Shown in pieces: positions 20,470-43,936 of a stretch of DNA of 43,936 nucleotides. Made by a program: the position numbers and the translations under genes. Positions within the stretch are counted from its first letter, which is position 1, and every line of letters begins with the position of its first letter. The notes under the pieces were generated by a model, which was given only the letters and a program-made list of their open reading frames with translations, was not told the origin of the DNA and searched no databases. Origin of the DNA: Acidimicrobiales bacterium (GTDB taxonomy: Bacteria; Actinomycetota; Acidimicrobiia; Acidimicrobiales; JAVJTC01); the NCBI GenBank assembly GCA_040219085.1, contig JAVJTC010000043.1, positions 68,481 through 112,416 on the forward strand. The letters are read 5' to 3'.

Positions 20470-20514
20470 CTGGCAGGCGGACGGTCCCGGAGGGTACACA
20501 GCTGTCGAGTCGAG

Positions 20515-20587
20515 AGCCCGAGGTCGGAATCGAACCGACGACCTATTCATTACGAGTGAATTGCTCTGCCGACTGAGCTACTCGGGC
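20515..20587 (-). tRNA. tRNA-Thr (anticodon CGU)
   Basis: The 73-nt minus-strand sequence folds as a full cloverleaf: acceptor GCCCGAG/CTCGGGC, D stem GCTC/GAGC, anticodon stem ATTCA/TGAAT with loop CTCGTAA, T arm GTCGG TTCGATT CCGAC. Anticodon CGT reads ACG (Thr). The discriminator base is U and no CCA is encoded. Confidence 0.96.
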
Positions 20588-36239: not shown

Positions 36240-36687
36240 CGACGATCGTCGACGGCTCAGGGCGGTGCCGCGAGGTGTAGACGACGAGACGAACCGCCGT
36301 CCCCTTCTCCGAGCTGCGGATCTCGTGATGGTCCGCGAGCACCCGCATGAGCGGGATGCCGAGGCCGCGTTCGAAGTCCAGACGGTCCGGCGAGCTGACG
36401 TGGGGAAGGGTCTCCAGGGCGTCGGGCTCGAAGCCCGCCCCCCGATCGGTGACCTCCACCTCGATCCGGTCCTCACCGAGGTCGAGGCGGATCAGCACCC
36501 GCTCGTCGCTGTCCACCCGGGTGTGGGCCTCCATCGCGTTCGTCGTGGCCTCCGAGACGATCAGACGCAGGTCGTCGACGCGCTCGTCGCGGCGCATCGG
36601 TTCGAGATCCGCGGCGGCAGCCACCACGGCGCGCACGAGCGACAGGTATTCGGGACGGGCGGGAACATGCAACTCTACGTGACTCAA
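36232..36687 (-). CDS. RsbW-like anti-sigma / HATPase kinase
   Basis: The 151-residue protein belongs to the GHKL ATPase group that includes RsbW and SpoIIAB. It has the N box IVSEATTNAMEAH at about 43-55, the G1 box TDRGAGFEP at about 80-88, the G2 box ERGLGIPLMRVLADH at about 106-120 and the GTAVRL segment. Such proteins bind a sigma factor and phosphorylate an STAS antagonist. The start is a TTG in a TTGA overlap with the STAS stop, preceded by GGAGG about 10 nt away. The STAS gene upstream is the expected partner. Confidence 0.9.
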   Translation of the reverse strand: MSHVELHVPARPEYLSLVRAVVAAAADLEPMRRDERVDDLRLIVSEATTNAMEAHTRVDSDERVLIRLDLGEDRIEVEVTDRGAGFEPDALETLPHVSSPDRLDFERGLGIPLMRVLADHHEIRSSEKGTAVRLVVYTSRHRPEPSTIVDG

Positions 36688-37055
36688 CGCGGTGGCACCT
36701 CCGCGTCGGGCGAGCTCGGAACCCGCTCGCAGGCCGAGGCGACGTCGTCGTAGATGGCGAAGACAGCGGTGAGCCGGGTCATGCGGAACAACTCGAGGAT
36801 GTTCTCGCGGCCACAGACGACCGTCATCTCCCCTGCGGCCGATGTCACCCGCTTGAGCGCACCCACGAGCACGCCCAGGCCGGTGGAATCCACGAAACCG
36901 ACGTCGCCGAGATCGAGCACGAGCCACCGGATGCCGCCGCCGACCAGGTCGACGACCGCGCGTCGCACGGCGGGGGCACTGGCCATGTCGATCTCACCGT
37001 GGACGTGGAGGACGGTCCACGGCCCACTCTCCGAGATCCTGAACGTCGGGTCCAC
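36684..37055 (-). CDS. STAS-domain anti-sigma factor antagonist
   Basis: The 123-residue protein is a single STAS domain: WTVLHVHGEIDMASAPAVRR near the N-terminus and DLGDVGFVDSTGLGVLVGAL around residue 48-67, with Ser at about 57 as the likely phosphorylation site. It is the expected partner of the HATPase kinase encoded next. The start is a GTG 5 nt after GGAGG. An adjacent promoter (TACGGT at 37099-37104) gives a leader of about 37 nt, so this operon is not leaderless. Confidence 0.92.
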   Translation of the reverse strand: MDPTFRISESGPWTVLHVHGEIDMASAPAVRRAVVDLVGGGIRWLVLDLGDVGFVDSTGLGVLVGALKRVTSAAGEMTVVCGRENILELFRMTRLTAVFAIYDDVASACERVPSSPDAEVPPR

Positions 37056-37098
37056 TCCGTCCTCCGTGTCCGGCAGCGCCGCGATGTGCGCCCGCACA

Positions 37099-37104
37099 AC
37101 CGTA
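37099..37104 (-). promoter_or_regulatory. -10 element of STAS/HATPase operon
   Basis: TACGGT lies about 44 bp upstream of the STAS GTG and diverges from the helicase promoter 50 bp away. Confidence 0.45.
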
Positions 37105-37153
37105 CCGGCTCCGGGGAGGCGGGCCGGGCTGGGCGGAACCCCGGGAATGTAAT

Positions 37154-37159
37154 TACGCT
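37154..37159 (+). promoter_or_regulatory. -10 element of helicase gene
   Basis: TACGCT would give a leader of about 25 nt containing GGAGG. The same region also holds GGAAT-N18-CTT (37145 onward), one base from the SigR-type consensus. Confidence 0.45.
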
Positions 37160-37190
37160 GACGGAACTTCCCGCGGCGACTGGAGGGCCG

Positions 37191-39449
37191 GTGGCTCTCA
37201 CCACGAGCACCCTCGACGACGTCATCGGCCGGCTCGCCGACGACGGGCGTCTCGTGCACGTCGAGCACCTCCCCGCGCGACCGGCGCGCCACGGACGCCC
37301 CGAGACTCCGGTCGACCCCGCGCTGCTCGCCCGGGCCGGTGTCGACGAGCTGTGGAGCCACCAGGCCGAGGCGGTCGACCTGTTGCGCGCGGGAACCTCG
37401 GTCGTCGTCGCCACGGGCACGGCGTCGGGCAAGTCGCTGTGTTACCAGATCCCCGTGGCCGAGGCGGTCGGCGCTGACGACCCCGGTACGGCTCTGGCGA
37501 TCTACCCGACGAAGGCCCTGGCCCAGGACCAGCTGCGGTCCTTCGCCCGGATCCTGCCGTCCCGATCCGTGGTGGCCACCTACGACGGCGACACCGCCGG
37601 CGAACAACGGGGTTGGCTGCGCACCAACGCCGACGTCGTGTTGACGAACCCCGAGATGCTCCACTCGTCGATACTGCCGAACCACCCCCGCTGGGGGCGT
37701 TTCCTCGCACGGCTGCGCTACGTCATCGTCGACGAGCTCCACGTCCTGCGGGGCGTCTTCGGGACCCACACGGCACACGTCCTGCGCCGGCTCGCCCGCA
37801 TCTGCGCCCTGCACGGCACCGAGCCCACCTTCGCGTTCACCTCCGCGACCATCGGCGAACCCGCCCGGCTCGCGGCCGACCTCTGCGGGAACGCGGTCAC
37901 GTCCGTCGACGGCGACGGCTCGCCGCGTGGACCCCGGATGTTCGCCCTGCTCGACCCGCCGGTCCTCGACCCCGCCAGCGGCGTGCGGTCTTCGGCCAAC
38001 AGCGAGACGGGTGCCGCCGTGGCGGACCTGGTCGACGCCGGCCACAGGACCATCGCCTTCTGTCGCAGCCGCAAGGGCACGGAACTCGTTGCGGCCGACA
38101 TCCGGCGTCGCATCCCCGGCCGCGCCGACGAGGTCCGCTCGTACCGCAGTGGCTACCTCGCCGAGGAGCGCCGGGCGATCGAAGACGAACTCGCCGCCGG
38201 CACGGTCTCCGCGGTGGTCGCAACGAGCGCGCTCGAGCTCGGCGTCGACATCGGCGGCCTCGACGCGTGCGTCCTCAACGGATTCCCCGGGACCATCGCC
38301 GCCATGTGGCAACAGGCCGGTCGTGCCGGCAGGTCCAGCGGCGAGTCCATCGCCGTGCTCGTCGCCGGCGAGGACCAGCTGGACCGGTGGCTCGTCGAGC
38401 ACCCCCACGAGGTCTTCTCACGGCCACCCGAGCCGGCGGTCGTCAACCTCGCCAATCCCTTCGTCCTCGATCCCCACCTCGCCTGCGCCGCGTTCGAGGC
38501 ACCGCTCAGCCACGACGACGAACGCTGGTGGCCCGGCATGCTCGACGACGGCGTGCGCCGCCTGGTGTGCGACGACCAGCTACGGACCAGGCGACGCGCC
38601 GCCGGCCCCTTCGCCGTGTGGACGGGACACGGCCGACCGGGGACCAACCTGAGCCTGCGCAGCGGCTCCGCGGGCGAAGTGAGGATCGTCACAAGCGACG
38701 GGACGCTGATCGGCACCGTCGACGAGGCGCGCTCGCACACCTCGGTGCACGACGGTGCCATCTACCTCCACCGCGGAGCGACATACCGCGTCCAGACCCT
38801 CGACCTCGACGGGCGCGAGGCCGTCGTCGAACCGTGCGACGGCGACGAGTACACCCAGGCACGGTCGGACACGACCATCGTCGTGACGGGTACCGAGTCC
38901 ACCCGACGTGCGGGCCGGGCGGAACTCTGCCTCGGCTCGGTCGAGGTCCGCACCCATGTCACCGGCTATCAGCGTCGCGAGGTCCGCAGCCGCAGAATCC
39001 TCGGCAACCACGTTCTCGATCTGCCCCTGCAGCGCCTGGCGACGCGGGCGTTCTGGTACACGGTCGACGACGACCTCGTGGAGGCGGCGGGTTTGGGCGA
39101 CGGCGCCCTGGGCGGCACCCTCCACGCGATCGAACACGCGGCGATCGGCATCCTGCCCCTGTTCACGATCTGTGACCGTTGGGACGTGGGTGGCGTCTCG
39201 ATCGCCCTGCATCCCGACACGGGACTCCCGACGATCTTCGTCTACGACGGCTACCCGGGCGGAGCGGGGATCGCCGAGTTGGGGTACGAGGCGGCAGACC
39301 GCCACCTCGCCGCGGCCCGCGACGTCATCGCCGCCTGTGGCTGTGACGACGGCTGCCCCTCCTGTGTTCAGTCACCGAAGTGCGGAAATGGGAACGACCC
39401 GTTGGACAAGGCGGGCGCGCTCGCGCTACTCGCCCGGATCCTCGACTGA
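37191..39449 (+). CDS. MrfA-like DEAD/DEAH-box helicase with DUF1998 domain
   Basis: The 752-residue superfamily 2 helicase has the Walker A GTASGKSLCYQIPVA, DELHVLRG (motif II), FTSATIG (motif III), TIAFCRSRKGTEL, then ATSALELGVDIGGLDACV and QQAGRAGRSS (motifs V and VI). The C-terminal DUF1998 part ends in CGCDDGCPSCVQSPKCG, four cysteines that bind zinc in MrfA. MrfA of Bacillus removes mitomycin lesions; a repair role is inferred. GTG 37191 follows GGAGG by 4-5 nt. The gene is convergent with the tad operon, the same layout as in mycobacteria. Confidence 0.92.
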   Translation: MALTTSTLDDVIGRLADDGRLVHVEHLPARPARHGRPETPVDPALLARAGVDELWSHQAEAVDLLRAGTSVVVATGTASGKSLCYQIPVAEAVGADDPGTALAIYPTKALAQDQLRSFARILPSRSVVATYDGDTAGEQRGWLRTNADVVLTNPEMLHSSILPNHPRWGRFLARLRYVIVDELHVLRGVFGTHTAHVLRRLARICALHGTEPTFAFTSATIGEPARLAADLCGNAVTSVDGDGSPRGPRMFALLDPPVLDPASGVRSSANSETGAAVADLVDAGHRTIAFCRSRKGTELVAADIRRRIPGRADEVRSYRSGYLAEERRAIEDELAAGTVSAVVATSALELGVDIGGLDACVLNGFPGTIAAMWQQAGRAGRSSGESIAVLVAGEDQLDRWLVEHPHEVFSRPPEPAVVNLANPFVLDPHLACAAFEAPLSHDDERWWPGMLDDGVRRLVCDDQLRTRRRAAGPFAVWTGHGRPGTNLSLRSGSAGEVRIVTSDGTLIGTVDEARSHTSVHDGAIYLHRGATYRVQTLDLDGREAVVEPCDGDEYTQARSDTTIVVTGTESTRRAGRAELCLGSVEVRTHVTGYQRREVRSRRILGNHVLDLPLQRLATRAFWYTVDDDLVEAAGLGDGALGGTLHAIEHAAIGILPLFTICDRWDVGGVSIALHPDTGLPTIFVYDGYPGGAGIAELGYEAADRHLAAARDVIAACGCDDGCPSCVQSPKCGNGNDPLDKAGALALLARILD

Positions 39450-39460
39450 GGCGGTCCGGC

Positions 39461-39841
39461 TCACCCCTCGGCCAGCATCGTCACCGAGTCGGTGAGGACG
39501 ACGTCGTCGAGCAGCGCTCCGACGAGGGGCACCTCGGTGGGGGCCCGGTAGGTGACCGTCACCGTCACGTCCGAACCGGGCGAGGCCGAACCCGAGACCG
39601 ACACCGTCAGCCGGGCAGGGTCGAGGTCCGCCGCACCCAGCGCAGCGGAACGGGCGGCGCCCGCATCATTGTGGATCGCCACCACCCGGGCCGCCTCCCG
39701 CGCGGCGTGAGTGGTCATGATCCGGGCGTGGACGACCAGCCCGACCTGCACCACGAGCAGCGCCGCCAGGGCCACGACGGGGAGAACGAGCGCGAACTCC
39801 ACGGTGGACTGCCCCCGCTCGCCTCCCCGCCGATGCCTCAC
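39461..39841 (-). CDS. tadE: TadE-like pseudopilin
   Basis: The 126-residue protein begins with a basic leader and the TadE signature RGQSTVEFALVLPVVALAALL, which a prepilin peptidase may cut, then a hydrophobic helix and an extracytoplasmic domain (LDPARLTVSVSGSASPGSDV). TadE/F proteins are minor pilins of tad pili. The GTG overlaps the preceding pilin stop (GTGA). It is the last gene of the tad operon; no TadF, TadG or prepilin peptidase is visible. Confidence 0.85.
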   Translation of the reverse strand: MRHRRGGERGQSTVEFALVLPVVALAALLVVQVGLVVHARIMTTHAAREAARVVAIHNDAGAARSAALGAADLDPARLTVSVSGSASPGSDVTVTVTYRAPTEVPLVGALLDDVVLTDSVTMLAEG

Positions 39842-40053
39842 GCGACGAGCCCGGTGATGGACCGCATCACCGCATCGAAGAGCGCGCCGATGCGGTTGCT
39901 CTCGCCCGCCCACGCGACGAGGAGCATCGCGACGGTGGCAGCACCGAGAAGCACGAGGGCGTACTCCGCGGTGGTCTGCGCCGACGTCGACCGCAGCGAT
40001 GTGAGCAGGCGCCGCAGGCGGTCCGGGATTGCAGGTGAGTCTTCGGTTGTCAT
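39838..40053 (-). CDS. Flp/DUF4244-like pilin
   Basis: The 71-residue protein has a basic leader (IPDRLRRLLTSLRS), then STSAQTTAEYALVLLGAATVAMLLVAW, a helix with the Glu-Tyr of Flp pilins, and a short outer tail (ALFDAVMRSITGLVA). DUF4244/Flp pilins are cut after a Gly before the xxxxEY motif; here that place has Ala-Gln, so processing is uncertain. It is the major-pilin position between tadC and tadE. The start codon ATG is preceded by AAGGGA at about 12 nt. Confidence 0.82.
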   Translation of the reverse strand: MTTEDSPAIPDRLRRLLTSLRSTSAQTTAEYALVLLGAATVAMLLVAWAGESNRIGALFDAVMRSITGLVA

Positions 40054-40110
40054 GACGAGGTGTTTCCCTTCGCTGTGAGAGTTCGCGGGGAAGTGGGGGC
40101 GCCGAGGGCT

Positions 40111-40878
40111 TCAAGCGCCGAGGACCTCGAGCGAGGCGACGAGGGCCGGCACGACGGTGAGGAGCGCGAACGCGGGGAGCAGGCACACGACCAGCGGGAA
40201 GACGAGACGCACGCTCGTACGGCGGGCCCGGATCTCGCCGCGGCGGCGGCGCTCCGCGCGACCGTCACGGCTGAGGCGCTCGAGACCGGCGATGACCGGT
40301 GCCCCGTGGCGCAGGCCGTCGACGAGGACACGTGCGAGCGGGCGGACGGACTCGCCGAGGAGGTCGGGGATCGCCTCGAGCGCGGAGACCACGTCGCCGT
40401 GCCGGGATCGTGACACCGTCTCCCCCAGCGCGCGCGACACGGGACCTTCCGCGAGACCGGCCACCACCTCGATGGCCGCCGTGACCGACAGCCCCGCCGA
40501 GACGGCAGCGAGGAGCAGGTCCACCACGTCGGGTAGTTCCGCGCGCACGGTGTCGGCGGCGCGCCGCGCCTCGCGCCTGCGCCGTCGGACGTCGAGCCCG
40601 TAGACCCCCAGCGCCGCAGCGGCGCCGGCGGGCAGGCCGAGCGGCGCGACGAGGACACCGGCGAGCACCGACCTCCCGGTCCGCCGGTCCCCATCCGGAT
40701 CCGGGGGACGACCGGCGACGCGCCGACAGCGGCGGCCGAGTCCCGCCGCCAGACCCGGCCTCGGTGGTGTCGGGCCGCTCGCGGTTCGCTGCGGGGGGCG
40801 GCGTCCCGGGGCGGGTCGGGTGCGCACGCCCACCACGGCGCCGCACCCGACCACCACCAGGGCGATCCACGGGATCAC
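40111..40878 (-). CDS. tadC: TadC-like type II/IV secretion inner-membrane protein
   Basis: The 255-residue protein is of the GspF/TadC type with helices at the N-terminus, at about 75-95 and near the C-terminus (RLVFPLVVCLLPAFALLTVVPALV). The cytosolic part carries ELPDVVDLLLAAVSAGLSV and the LLGESVRPLARVLVDGLRHGAPV segment. It is paired with TadB in the platform on which TadA works. The GTG overlaps the tadB stop (GTGA). An unusual Arg/Pro-rich stretch (RTRPAPGRRPPQR) follows the first helix. Confidence 0.88.
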   Translation of the reverse strand: MIPWIALVVVGCGAVVGVRTRPAPGRRPPQRTASGPTPPRPGLAAGLGRRCRRVAGRPPDPDGDRRTGRSVLAGVLVAPLGLPAGAAAALGVYGLDVRRRRREARRAADTVRAELPDVVDLLLAAVSAGLSVTAAIEVVAGLAEGPVSRALGETVSRSRHGDVVSALEAIPDLLGESVRPLARVLVDGLRHGAPVIAGLERLSRDGRAERRRRGEIRARRTSVRLVFPLVVCLLPAFALLTVVPALVASLEVLGA

Positions 40879-41696
40879 CGCGCGTCCCGCACGATCCGGT
40901 GCATCCACACCGCCCCGGCCGCGTCCAGAGCGAGACCTGCGACGAGACAGACCCTGCCGACCGCGGTGCCCAACAGCGTGTCGGCGACACCGGAACCGCC
41001 GACCGATCCCAACACTGCGAACGCGAGGGGCAACAGCGCGACCACAGCGGCCGATGCCTTGGCCTGCGCGGAGGAGGCCCCGATCTCCCCATCGATCGCC
41101 TGGCGTTCCCGCAGCGTCGCGGCGACACCGTCCAGACCGCGGGCACGATCACCGCCGCCGCTCGAACCGAGCGTCAGCGCGGCGACGGCGAGACGGACCT
41201 CCGCACCCGGTCGGCGGTCACGCCACCGGGCGAGCGCCTCCGCGAACGAAACCCCTGCGCGTAGCTCGGTCACGACCGGGTCGAGGTCCCGGCGGAGCGG
41301 CGCAGACACCGCCGCGCGCGCCTCGACGAGCGCGGTCGGCGGTGAGGCCCCCGACCGCAGTGACCGCGCCATCGCCTCGACGAGGTCGGGGATCGCCGCC
41401 GCCGACAGCCGCTCACCCCTGTCCCGCAGCGTCCAGGCTGTGATGACGGCGGCGACCATGAGGAGCAAGACGCCGCCGAGCGCGCCCGGGACGCCGGCGA
41501 TGCCGGCGCCGACCACTCCGGCGGCGGCGAGTGCGGCCCCGGCCGTCACGATCACTTCGCGTGGTTCCGTCTCGATCCCGAGCCGGTGCAGCACGGTGCG
41601 CGGCGTGGACGCCCGGGCGGCACCCGGGCGCAGAGTGTCGACCAGGGAGCCGGCCCGTACGTGCGCCCTCAGCACCTGCGGGGTGGGCGCTCTCAC
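40875..41696 (-). CDS. tadB: TadB-like type II/IV secretion inner-membrane protein
   Basis: The 273-residue protein is the second GspF-type platform subunit, with helices around 50-90 and near the C-terminus, the central AIPDLVEAMARSLRSGASP segment and VRLAVAALTLGSSGGGDRARGLDG, common in actinobacterial TadB. The GTG overlaps the TadA stop (GTGA). With TadC it forms the inner-membrane base of the tad pilus. Confidence 0.88.
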   Translation of the reverse strand: MRAPTPQVLRAHVRAGSLVDTLRPGAARASTPRTVLHRLGIETEPREVIVTAGAALAAAGVVGAGIAGVPGALGGVLLLMVAAVITAWTLRDRGERLSAAAIPDLVEAMARSLRSGASPPTALVEARAAVSAPLRRDLDPVVTELRAGVSFAEALARWRDRRPGAEVRLAVAALTLGSSGGGDRARGLDGVAATLRERQAIDGEIGASSAQAKASAAVVALLPLAFAVLGSVGGSGVADTLLGTAVGRVCLVAGLALDAAGAVWMHRIVRDAR

Positions 41697-42757
41697 CCGT
41701 CGGCCTTCCACACGACGTGGATGCCCCGCTCCCGGGACGCCTCGGCGACGGCGCTCACCCGGCGCGCCCCGTCGCCGCGCCGCTCGACGTGGACGAACAG
41801 GTCCAGCGACGCGAGCACGTGCTCGGTCGCGAGTTCCACGGTCAGGTTGGCGTCGGCCGCGACGATCATCGTCACCAGGCGACGGAGGGCATCGGTGGGA
41901 CTGTTGGCGTGGCAGGTGGTGAGCGAACCCTCATGACCGGTGTTCATCGCCTGGACCATGTCCAGCGCCTCCGGGCCGCGGACCTCACCCACGACGAAGC
42001 GGTCGGGCCGCATGCGCAGCGCCGTCCGCACGAGGCGACGGATGGAGACCTCGCCGACGCCATCCACGTTGGCCGGCCGGGCCTCGAGTCGCACGACATG
42101 AGGGTGGTCCAGCGCGAGTTCGGCCGCGTCCTCCACCGTGACGATGCGTTCGCCGTCGTCGACCTCCGCGGCGAGGGCGTTCAGCAGTGAGGTCTTGCCG
42201 GCACCGGTCCCTCCGGTCACCACGATGTTGCGGTGTCGGGCCACGGCCCGACCGAGTTGCGCGGCCACCTCCGGTCCGGTGAAGTCGGCCACGGTGAGCG
42301 GGAGCGGGGCGAAACGTCTGATGGTCACGTAGGGCCCGTCCACGGCGAGCGGCGGCACGACGACGCACACGCGCGAACCGTCACCGAGGCGGGCGTCGAC
42401 GATGGGGACGGAGCGGTCCACGCGCAACCCGAGCGGTCCCACGATCCGCTCGATCACGATCCCGATCGTCGCGGCGTCGAGCTCGATCGACGTGCGCTCG
42501 ACCCGCCCGGCCCGCTCGACCCACACCGGGCCCGGACCATTGACCATCACCTCACTCACGTCGGGCGCGGCGAGCAGGACCTCGAGGGGGCCCAGACCTC
42601 CCACCCGGGCGAGGACGTCGGCCACGACTCGGGCCCGTTCGTCCTCTCCCAGCAGCGGACGGCGCCGGGCAACCTCCGAGATGAGCCGTTCGGGGTCCAC
42701 GGGCGCGTGCTCGGCGGCGAGGTCGTCGTGCAACTCGGCGACGATGGACGCGTTCAT
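41693..42757 (-). CDS. tadA: TadA/CpaF secretion ATPase
   Basis: The 354-residue hexameric ATPase powers pilus assembly. It has the N-terminal [20 protein letters not shown] segment, [17 protein letters not shown], Walker A GGTGAGKT at about 182-189, the Asp-rich [20 protein letters not shown], Walker B in [19 protein letters not shown] and the His-box [11 protein letters not shown]. The ATG overlaps the cpaE-like stop (ATGA). All active residues seem intact. Confidence 0.95.
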
Positions 42758-43437
42758 GTCGTCGCCAGTGCCCGCTCGAGCACGCGTCGCGCCCCGTGGG
42801 GGATGCGGGTGCCCAGGAGTCCGGCATCGACGGCGCGGGCGATGGCCGGATCCACGTCGAGTTCGAGGACCACCGGCGCGCCGATGACATCGGCGACATC
42901 GGCGGCGCCGAGCGCCCGACCGGGTTCGGACATCACCACGACACCGTCGGGGACCGCCCCCGATCCCCGCGAGGCCCTCAGCGCCAGATAGCAGGGTCGG
43001 GTGACCAGCCAGGCCCGGGACGCGGCGGCCACGAAGGCCCGCCGTAGCGCGGCGGCGGCATCGGCCAGGTCCGCCGACGCGATGTTGCCGACATCGACGA
43101 CCACGGGGCGCGGATCGGAAAGGAGGTGGCGGGTGAGCAGCGCGGCGCGCGACGACACCGTGATGGCGACGGCGCCGCGGGGCAGCAGGGACAGACCCGG
43201 GCGGGCGGAGACCTCGAGGCGGGCCAGTGCGTCCGGAGGTGGGTCCTCCTCTGCCCCCAGCCACTCAGCGAGGCCGGGGCCGGCCGGATCGGCGATGCCC
43301 AGGGCGGCGGGTAGATCACCGCCGAGATCCACCGCCAGGACGCCGGGACCGTCGCCGGTACGGGCGAGCGCGAGTGCAGTCAGGGCCGAGAAGACGGTGC
43401 AACCCGACCCTCCCTTCGTTGTGAAGCAGGCGAACAC
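42754..43437 (-). CDS. CpaE/Ssd-like MinD-ParA-family protein with altered P-loop
   Basis: The 227-residue protein heads the tad operon, the position of CpaE-like septum-site-determining proteins in actinobacteria. It has a MinD-like start, FTTKGGSGCTVFSALTALAL, where the deviant Walker A reads KGGSGCT: the Lys/Thr frame is kept but the P-loop Lys before Thr is replaced by Cys. Further segments are VLAVDLGGDLPAALG and RPVVVDVGNIASADLADA. It probably binds a nucleotide poorly or not at all and may localise the pilus machinery. The GTG is 5 nt after GAGGAGG. Confidence 0.82.
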   Translation of the reverse strand: MFACFTTKGGSGCTVFSALTALALARTGDGPGVLAVDLGGDLPAALGIADPAGPGLAEWLGAEEDPPPDALARLEVSARPGLSLLPRGAVAITVSSRAALLTRHLLSDPRPVVVDVGNIASADLADAAAALRRAFVAAASRAWLVTRPCYLALRASRGSGAVPDGVVVMSEPGRALGAADVADVIGAPVVLELDVDPAIARAVDAGLLGTRIPHGARRVLERALATT

Positions 43438-43512: not shown

Positions 43513-43587
43513 TCAGACCTCTGTGACCTTGCGGACGAGGAGGGCGATCAGCGCCGCTGCGACGACGATCAGCAGGATCTTCTTCAT
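43513..43587 (-). CDS. 24-residue hydrophobic mini-protein A
   Basis: The frame starts with Met-Lys-Lys, continues with about 15 hydrophobic residues (ILLIVVAAALIALLV) and ends with RKVTEV. It would form a single short membrane helix. TAGTGT lies 6 nt before the ATG, giving a leaderless mRNA. It resembles the mini-protein encoded on the other side of selC, and it recalls short actinobacterial Met-Lys-Lys membrane peptides such as the DLW-39 group, though it lacks that motif. It lies 75 bp before the cpaE-like gene on the same strand and could lead into the tad operon. Confidence 0.5.
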   Translation of the reverse strand: MKKILLIVVAAALIALLVRKVTEV

Positions 43588-43593
43588 GGACCC

Positions 43594-43599
43594 ACACTA
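43594..43599 (-). promoter_or_regulatory. -10 element of mini-protein A (leaderless)
   Basis: TAGTGT on the minus strand lies 6 nt before the ATG at 43587. Confidence 0.45.
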
Positions 43600-43633: not shown

Positions 43634-43729
43634 TGGCGGAGGTGGACGGGAATCGAACCCGCCGGACGGGGATCGCCCGTCCCAACCGCTTTGAAGGCGG
43701 CGGAGCCCACCAGGTACTCGGACACCTCC
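43634..43729 (-). tRNA. selC: tRNA-Sec (selenocysteine, anticodon UCA)
   Basis: The 96-nt minus-strand sequence has the tRNA-Sec features: length close to E. coli selC (95 nt), a long variable arm (GGACGGG paired with CCCGTCC), an extended D arm with a 4-nt loop TGGT, anticodon loop CTTCAAA with anticodon TCA (43692-43694 on the plus strand), T arm GCGGG TTCGATT CCCGT, discriminator G and encoded CCA. The acceptor pairs GGAGGTG with CACCTCC; the eighth pair is a T-C mismatch. It reads UGA as selenocysteine, so the organism should have SelA, SelB and SelD and at least one selenoprotein, none of which is seen here. Confidence 0.93.
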
Positions 43730-43769: not shown

Positions 43770-43775
43770 TACGCT
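43770..43775 (+). promoter_or_regulatory. -10 element of mini-protein B (leaderless)
   Basis: TACGCT is followed by 8 nt and the ATG at 43784. The promoter diverges from that of selC, about 22 bp away. Confidence 0.45.
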
Positions 43776-43783
43776 GCGCGACC

Positions 43784-43858
43784 ATGAAGAAGCGGATCCT
43801 CGTCATCGCCCTCATCGTGCTGGCAGTCGTAGCCGCCAAGAAGGCGCGCCACGTGTGA
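43784..43858 (+). CDS. 24-residue hydrophobic mini-protein B
   Basis: The frame begins Met-Lys-Lys-Arg, has a hydrophobic core (ILVIALIVLAVVAA) and ends KKARHV. Codon third positions are mostly G or C, as in real genes of this genome. Length, order of charges and helix match mini-protein A, although the two are on opposite strands with selC between them. TACGCT lies 8 nt before the ATG. The function is unknown. Confidence 0.5.
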   Translation: MKKRILVIALIVLAVVAAKKARHV

Positions 43859-43936
43859 CGAGAGCGTCGAACCACGACTTGGGGGGCGGCGCCGGCTTCG
43901 TGCGCTCGCGCCACAGCCAGTAGCCCGCACCGGCCG
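43812..43936 (-). CDS. Possible 3' end of a gene entering from the right edge
   Basis: A minus-strand frame open to the edge encodes AGAGYWLWRERTKPAPPPKS and WFDALVTR before a stop at 43812. The first 25 codons have strong G/C at the third position, as in real genes; the last 12, which lie opposite mini-protein B, do not. It may be the end of a membrane protein, but either this end or mini-protein B is probably mis-assigned. No function can be named. Confidence 0.3.
   Translation of the reverse strand, partial: AGAGYWLWRERTKPAPPPKSWFDALVTRGAPSWRLRLPAR

Follow-up and report, generated by a model that had tools for sequence, protein, structure and literature searches.

The Sec-decoding trait of bacteria consists of selA, selB, selC, and selD, and the two most common bacterial selenoproteins are FdhA and SelD (PMC1794560). 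Bacterial tRNA-Sec (RF01852) has a UCA anticodon, an 8/5 layout, a long variable arm, a 6-bp D stem with a 4-nt loop, G73, and CCA. The Secmarker paper (PMC5330540) describes variant structures, namely 7/5 folds, a combined acceptor and T stem length of 12 bp, and a bulge in the D stem that is specific to Clostridiales. For Acidimicrobiia and Acidimicrobiales, a literature search for selenocysteine or selenoproteins returned passing mentions only. Two groups of small actinobacterial proteins are also close to what is described below. In the leaderless small proteins of mycobacteria, the start codon lies at or next to the predicted 5' end of the mRNA and there is no Shine-Dalgarno sequence (PMC4633059). 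The DLW-39 small proteins (NF038356), for which our search found no literature, are short actinobacterial peptides with an MKK-like start and one hydrophobic stretch. The stretch of DNA analyzed here (43,936 nucleotides; "the window") lies at a contig end in an Acidimicrobiales genome of 3.77 Mb in 45 contigs, and it carries a selC gene flanked by two very short genes.

ARAGORN calls a tRNA-SeC (tca) at positions 43634 to 43729 on the minus strand, and the Rfam model RF01852 matches positions 43638 to 43729 of the same strand over its full length (model positions 1 to 91) with 64.9 bits (E value, 4.3e-11), well above the gathering score of 47 bits. Positions 43634 to 43637 are G73 and CCA, i.e., the CCA end is encoded in selC. 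The UCA anticodon, the long variable arm, and the 4-nt D loop (UGGU) reported in the original prediction are all present, and the gene shares the 8/5 geometry and the 6-bp D stem of bacterial tRNA-Sec. It departs from the standard at three points: following the pairing of GGAGGTG with CACCTCC, the eighth acceptor layer is a U x C mismatch, the first T-stem pair is G.U, and one A in the D stem is bulged (unpaired). The acceptor and T stems together keep the length of 13 layers, but with U x C in one layer and G.U in another, pairing is incomplete. Apart from selC, the window has a single tRNA gene, a tRNA-Thr (CGT) at positions 20514 to 20587 on the minus strand.

The comparison set comprised 136 distinct tRNA-Sec genes from this order and 33 from Actinomycetota outside it. 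Of the 136, 132 have U x C at the eighth layer, a count in which the 5' U was free, while the pattern used to fetch part of the set fixed the 3' base; loci fetched by the covariance model likewise have U x C at this layer. The D region is as long as that of the window gene (25 nt) in 131 of the 136, the bulged D stem is found in approximately 131, and G73 is present in all 136. Of the 33 genes from elsewhere in the phylum, 20 also have A x C or U x C at the eighth layer. The original prediction had treated the mismatch and the bulged A as departures of this gene. Both are real, but they are a conserved trait of the lineage and not an oddity of the gene in the window. One genome of the order (G090) has two different tRNA-Sec genes (L026 on contig C125 and L060 on contig C66); the former differs in its acceptor (GGGGATG) and its D arm, yet it too has the U x C eighth layer. 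This pair could be due to a contig of a second lineage in the bin.

Like selC, the remainder of the Sec-decoding trait is found in the same genome, and we detected no difference from the standard set. The search for selA, selB, and selD that had been proposed together with the prediction found all three. SelB scores 283.8 bits (cut-off, 242) and SelD 341.5 bits (cut-off, 125), and selA, named by its sequence and operon position and not by a family search, lies directly upstream of selB in the same direction. Our search for selenoproteins covered SelD and the molybdopterin oxidoreductases, and it gave one in-frame TGA at a known Sec position in each of two genes. In selD, the single in-frame TGA is at the catalytic Sec/Cys position (GAG-U-ACK), and in the molybdopterin oxidoreductase, which is a formate dehydrogenase alpha subunit, the single in-frame TGA is in the formate dehydrogenase motif (SCNRT-U-HAPSV). 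By the look of their sequences, NuoE/NuoF-type genes follow the formate dehydrogenase gene. Hairpins form after both TGAs, and they are not significant as bSECIS elements (z scores of -1.9 for SelD and -0.6 for the formate dehydrogenase; overall, -1.9 to 0.6). As judged from its genes, the Sec system is complete and ordinary, and the reading that UGA is decoded as selenocysteine stands; such decoding would be expected in vivo.

Selenocysteine use had been described as patchy in actinobacteria. Of 396 genomes sampled from the phylum, 206 have a tRNA-Sec, as do 176 of the 298 from the order, i.e., it is not rare. The named contigs that share the tRNA-Sec core are mostly from Acidimicrobiales or Acidimicrobiia, including Ilumatobacteraceae and Candidatus Microthrix. 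Two contigs with an Acidimicrobiia-type selC are assigned to a Gammaproteobacteria and an Acidobacteria metagenome-assembled genome (L181 and L191); L181 also has a divergent short gene of the kind described below beside selC. These two contigs are likely mis-binned.

The surroundings of selC are those of a tad locus, as had been noted. The tad operon extends over approximately positions 39838 to 43437 on the minus strand and includes a TadA/CpaF ATPase (T2SSE domain match; 41696 to 42757), TadB- and TadC-like proteins (two T2SSF domain matches; 40111 to 41711), and a DUF4244 pilin-like open reading frame. The gene at positions 42754 to 43437, also on the minus strand, has no Pfam or NCBIfam match; from its position we infer a CpaE-like ATPase, which is a conserved neighbor of selC in the order. 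On the other side of selC, positions 43812 to 43936 (minus strand) encode the C-terminal end of a HAD-IB hydrolase that is cut by the contig end and is 55% identical, in the same frame, to the proteins of loci L151 and L087. The open reading frame of L151 used for this comparison is a HAD-IB protein, and TIGR01490 identifies the family. Next to the tad genes, positions 36999 to 39449 (plus strand) and the C-terminal part of 36684 to 38408 (minus strand) present a MrfA/Hrq1-like DEAD-box helicase (PF09369 and PF22982) divergent from an apparent STAS-type anti-anti-sigma sequence.

Protein clustering of the selC loci gave as recurrent neighbors an RpoD/SigB-type sigma factor, the HAD-IB hydrolase (TIGR01490), the CpaE-like ATPase, and TadA. 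Of 72 long loci, 47 have the sigma factor at a distance of ≤3 kb from selC and 23 the CpaE-like ATPase. The order in the window (tad, mini-gene A, selC, mini-gene B, HAD) is a variant of the usual one.

The least ordinary part of the locus is the pair of short genes, which the original prediction mentioned as two divergent mini-genes and passed over. They are real open reading frames transcribed away from each other. Mini-gene A (positions 43513 to 43587, minus strand) is codirectional with selC and downstream of it, and it encodes the 24-residue peptide MKKILLIVVAAALIALLVRKVTEV. Mini-gene B (positions 43784 to 43858, plus strand) lies 5' of selC and is transcribed divergently from it, and it encodes the 24-residue peptide MKKRILVIALIVLAVVAAKKARHV. 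Both peptides follow the same pattern of MKK, 14 to 15 hydrophobic residues, K/R-K, and a short polar tail. With a family profile built from 29 such peptides, the genome has only these two copies (A, 32.7 bits, E value of 3.9e-6; B, 35.0 bits, E value of 7.7e-7); the next match has an E value of 1.2 and lies inside a long open reading frame. In the order, 171 of 298 genomes have a match at an E value of ≤0.01, nearly always as a single copy, and in the phylum sample of 396 genomes, matches at an E value of 1e-4 occur in genomes of this order only. A mini-gene lies within 450 bp of selC in 71 of 172 distinct selC loci, some of which were included in the training of the profile, while most of the pattern-fetched loci were absent from it. 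In 48 of these 71 loci the mini-gene is upstream and divergent and in 22 it is downstream and codirectional; the window is the only locus with mini-genes on both sides. Of 20 copies fetched from other orders of the class, 17 have as a neighbor at least one of selC, the HAD-IB hydrolase, the CpaE-like ATPase, TadA, and the sigma factor.

The start codon and the 24-codon length are conserved. Related copies differ in the proportions 26%, 16%, and 58% at codon positions 1, 2, and 3, with a pN/pS of 0.34, which shows purifying selection on the encoded peptides. Since a side branch of 25 to 26 residues (MSKNRKFLFVALAALLAVLARKVRDV), found beside selC in loci L079, L155, L166, and L230, scores low with the main profile, the family is larger than counted. 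None of the models in Pfam and NCBIfam reaches its cut-off for the mini-peptides tested. Judging from their sequences, these 24-residue peptides of membrane type apparently form a family that extends over the class and has not been described before.

The regions upstream of the mini-genes have a conserved element at a fixed distance. A -10-like TAGTGT (positions 43594 to 43599, minus strand) precedes the ATG of mini-gene A by 6 nt, and a -10-like TACGCT (positions 43770 to 43775, plus strand) precedes the ATG of mini-gene B by 8 nt. In 71 of 79 distinct upstream regions of the order, including both of these, a TAnnnT ends 5 to 9 nt before the start, compared with 0 to 2 in control windows of equal width. 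The conserved element is a -10 alone, with no -35, and a generic promoter scan near the mini-genes found no full sigma-70 site. All of the other 8 regions have a Shine-Dalgarno sequence (AAAGGA or AGAGGA), and nearly all of the 20 copies fetched from other orders of the class are preceded by one, such as AGGAGG. At this spacing of TAnnnT, transcription would begin on the start codon or immediately beside it, which is most naturally read as a leaderless mRNA, and the mini-gene mRNAs of this order, those of the window among them, are predicted to be mostly leaderless. Like the small proteins of mycobacteria, they would begin at or next to the start codon and have no Shine-Dalgarno sequence. In contrast to the mycobacterial case, a single family appears, from its upstream sequences, to be leaderless in one order and to use Shine-Dalgarno sequences in sister orders.

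Several simpler accounts of the locus have to be weighed against these observations. That selC is a relic and that selenocysteine is not made is barely credible: the U x C mismatch and the bulged D stem that would suggest decay are present in 132 and approximately 131, respectively, of the 136 tRNAs of the order, and the genome retains the full set of sel genes and two Sec codons at conserved positions. A tie of the mini-peptides to selenium, as regulators or accessories of selC or of Sec synthesis, would account for how closely they adjoin selC in many families; among the matches listed, from which the 23 genomes with the weakest mini-gene matches are left out, a mini-gene and selC on one contig are ≤500 bp apart in 63 of 68 genomes (median, 167 bp). 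However, among the same listed matches, 84 genomes have both genes and 64 have the mini-gene only (odds ratio, 0.83; P = 0.48), and in several genomes that lack selC (L112, L117, L120, and L125) the order sigma factor, mini-gene, HAD hydrolase is maintained, which makes such a tie very improbable. The presence of the mini-gene is independent of that of selC, and therefore their adjacency reflects shared ancestry of the locus and no role in selenium metabolism. We conclude that the mini-gene is a syntenic neighbor of selC and not a selenium gene.

The mini-genes could also be no genes at all but a by-product of the HAD-IB gene encoded opposite them or of a G+C-rich composition. In the window, the end of the HAD-IB gene and that of mini-gene B share 47 bp tail to tail, and L151 has the same overlap; in some loci the HAD gene covers the mini-gene on the other strand, and antisense frame 1 has a lowish pN/pS of 0.43. 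Against this, the pN/pS of the sense frame is lower, mini-gene A is not at the HAD gene, copies in L028 and L112 do not overlap it, and 0 of 5911 open reading frames from shuffled flanks reach even 8 bits. The start codon, the spacing of the -10 element or the Shine-Dalgarno sequence, and the length are moreover all conserved, including the Shine-Dalgarno sequence in sister orders, and the by-product account, which we consider highly improbable, is largely refuted. It is unlikely that the mini-peptides are truncated members of the DLW-39 or SE2200 small-protein families. Of the 29 profile members, 20 match DLW-39 weakly (best E value, 0.0028) and 23 match SE2200 (best E value, 0.0011), over the first 20 to 21 profile positions, but only MKK and the hydrophobic stretch are matched, features common to many unrelated short peptides. 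In the DLW-39 test, mini-gene A gave 13.6 bits and the search of its own genome 15.4 bits, both below the cut-off of 24, and for the two families the scores are well under the curated cut-offs (13.6 versus 24 bits and 15.4 versus 30 bits). The mini-peptides have 24 residues, compared with the 38 positions of the DLW-39 model, the C-terminal half of which is absent from them. A short hydrophobic helix with basic ends, with the HAD protein encoded on the opposite strand in some loci, would also suit the small toxic membrane peptide of a type I toxin-antitoxin pair; such a toxin is quite unlikely for a gene that has stayed at one locus throughout the class and is almost never present in more than one copy.

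Three further ideas were tried and rejected. Mini-gene A as a leader peptide of the tad operon is not general, as the downstream copy in L041 points away from cpaE. No tRNA gene lies within approximately 1.5 kb of the copies examined in genomes lacking selC, so the mini-genes are not general flankers of tRNA genes, and with normally one copy per genome they are not a dispersed repeat.

The explanation that we favor with considerable confidence is a working selC with a complete Sec system in an old, vertically inherited locus that also holds a family of 24-residue peptides with mostly leaderless starts in this order. In this explanation, selC would operate with selA-selB, a Sec-containing SelD, and a Sec-containing formate dehydrogenase. 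It would sit in an old class neighborhood, passed on vertically, of RpoD/SigB-type sigma factor, selC, mini-gene, HAD-IB hydrolase, and tad pilus genes. Most mini-genes of the order would start from a -10 box, with transcription beginning at or next to the start codon, and a minority, like those of sister orders, would use a Shine-Dalgarno sequence. The mini-peptides are predicted to insert into the membrane, and the functional clue they offer is limited to hydrophobicity. We tentatively consider it possible that the peptide spans the membrane once, binds and modulates a larger membrane complex as a small protein, and is unrelated to selenium, a reading that fits because of the single short helix, the basic ends, the single copy, and the steady conservation.

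For annotation, the unusual acceptor and D stem of these tRNAs are not to be mistaken for signs of a pseudogene, and the SelD and formate dehydrogenase of this organism need to be annotated through TGA. The mini-gene family is conserved across a bacterial class and is too short for the usual gene finders. With its conserved address (sigma factor, selC, HAD-IB hydrolase, and tad), its Shine-Dalgarno sequences in sister orders, and its putatively leaderless starts here, this class-wide family of membrane peptides probably constitutes a natural experiment on the evolution of leaderless translation. Sister orders have versions of this gene that differ in having or lacking a leader-type start, and this difference would make that evolution directly testable.
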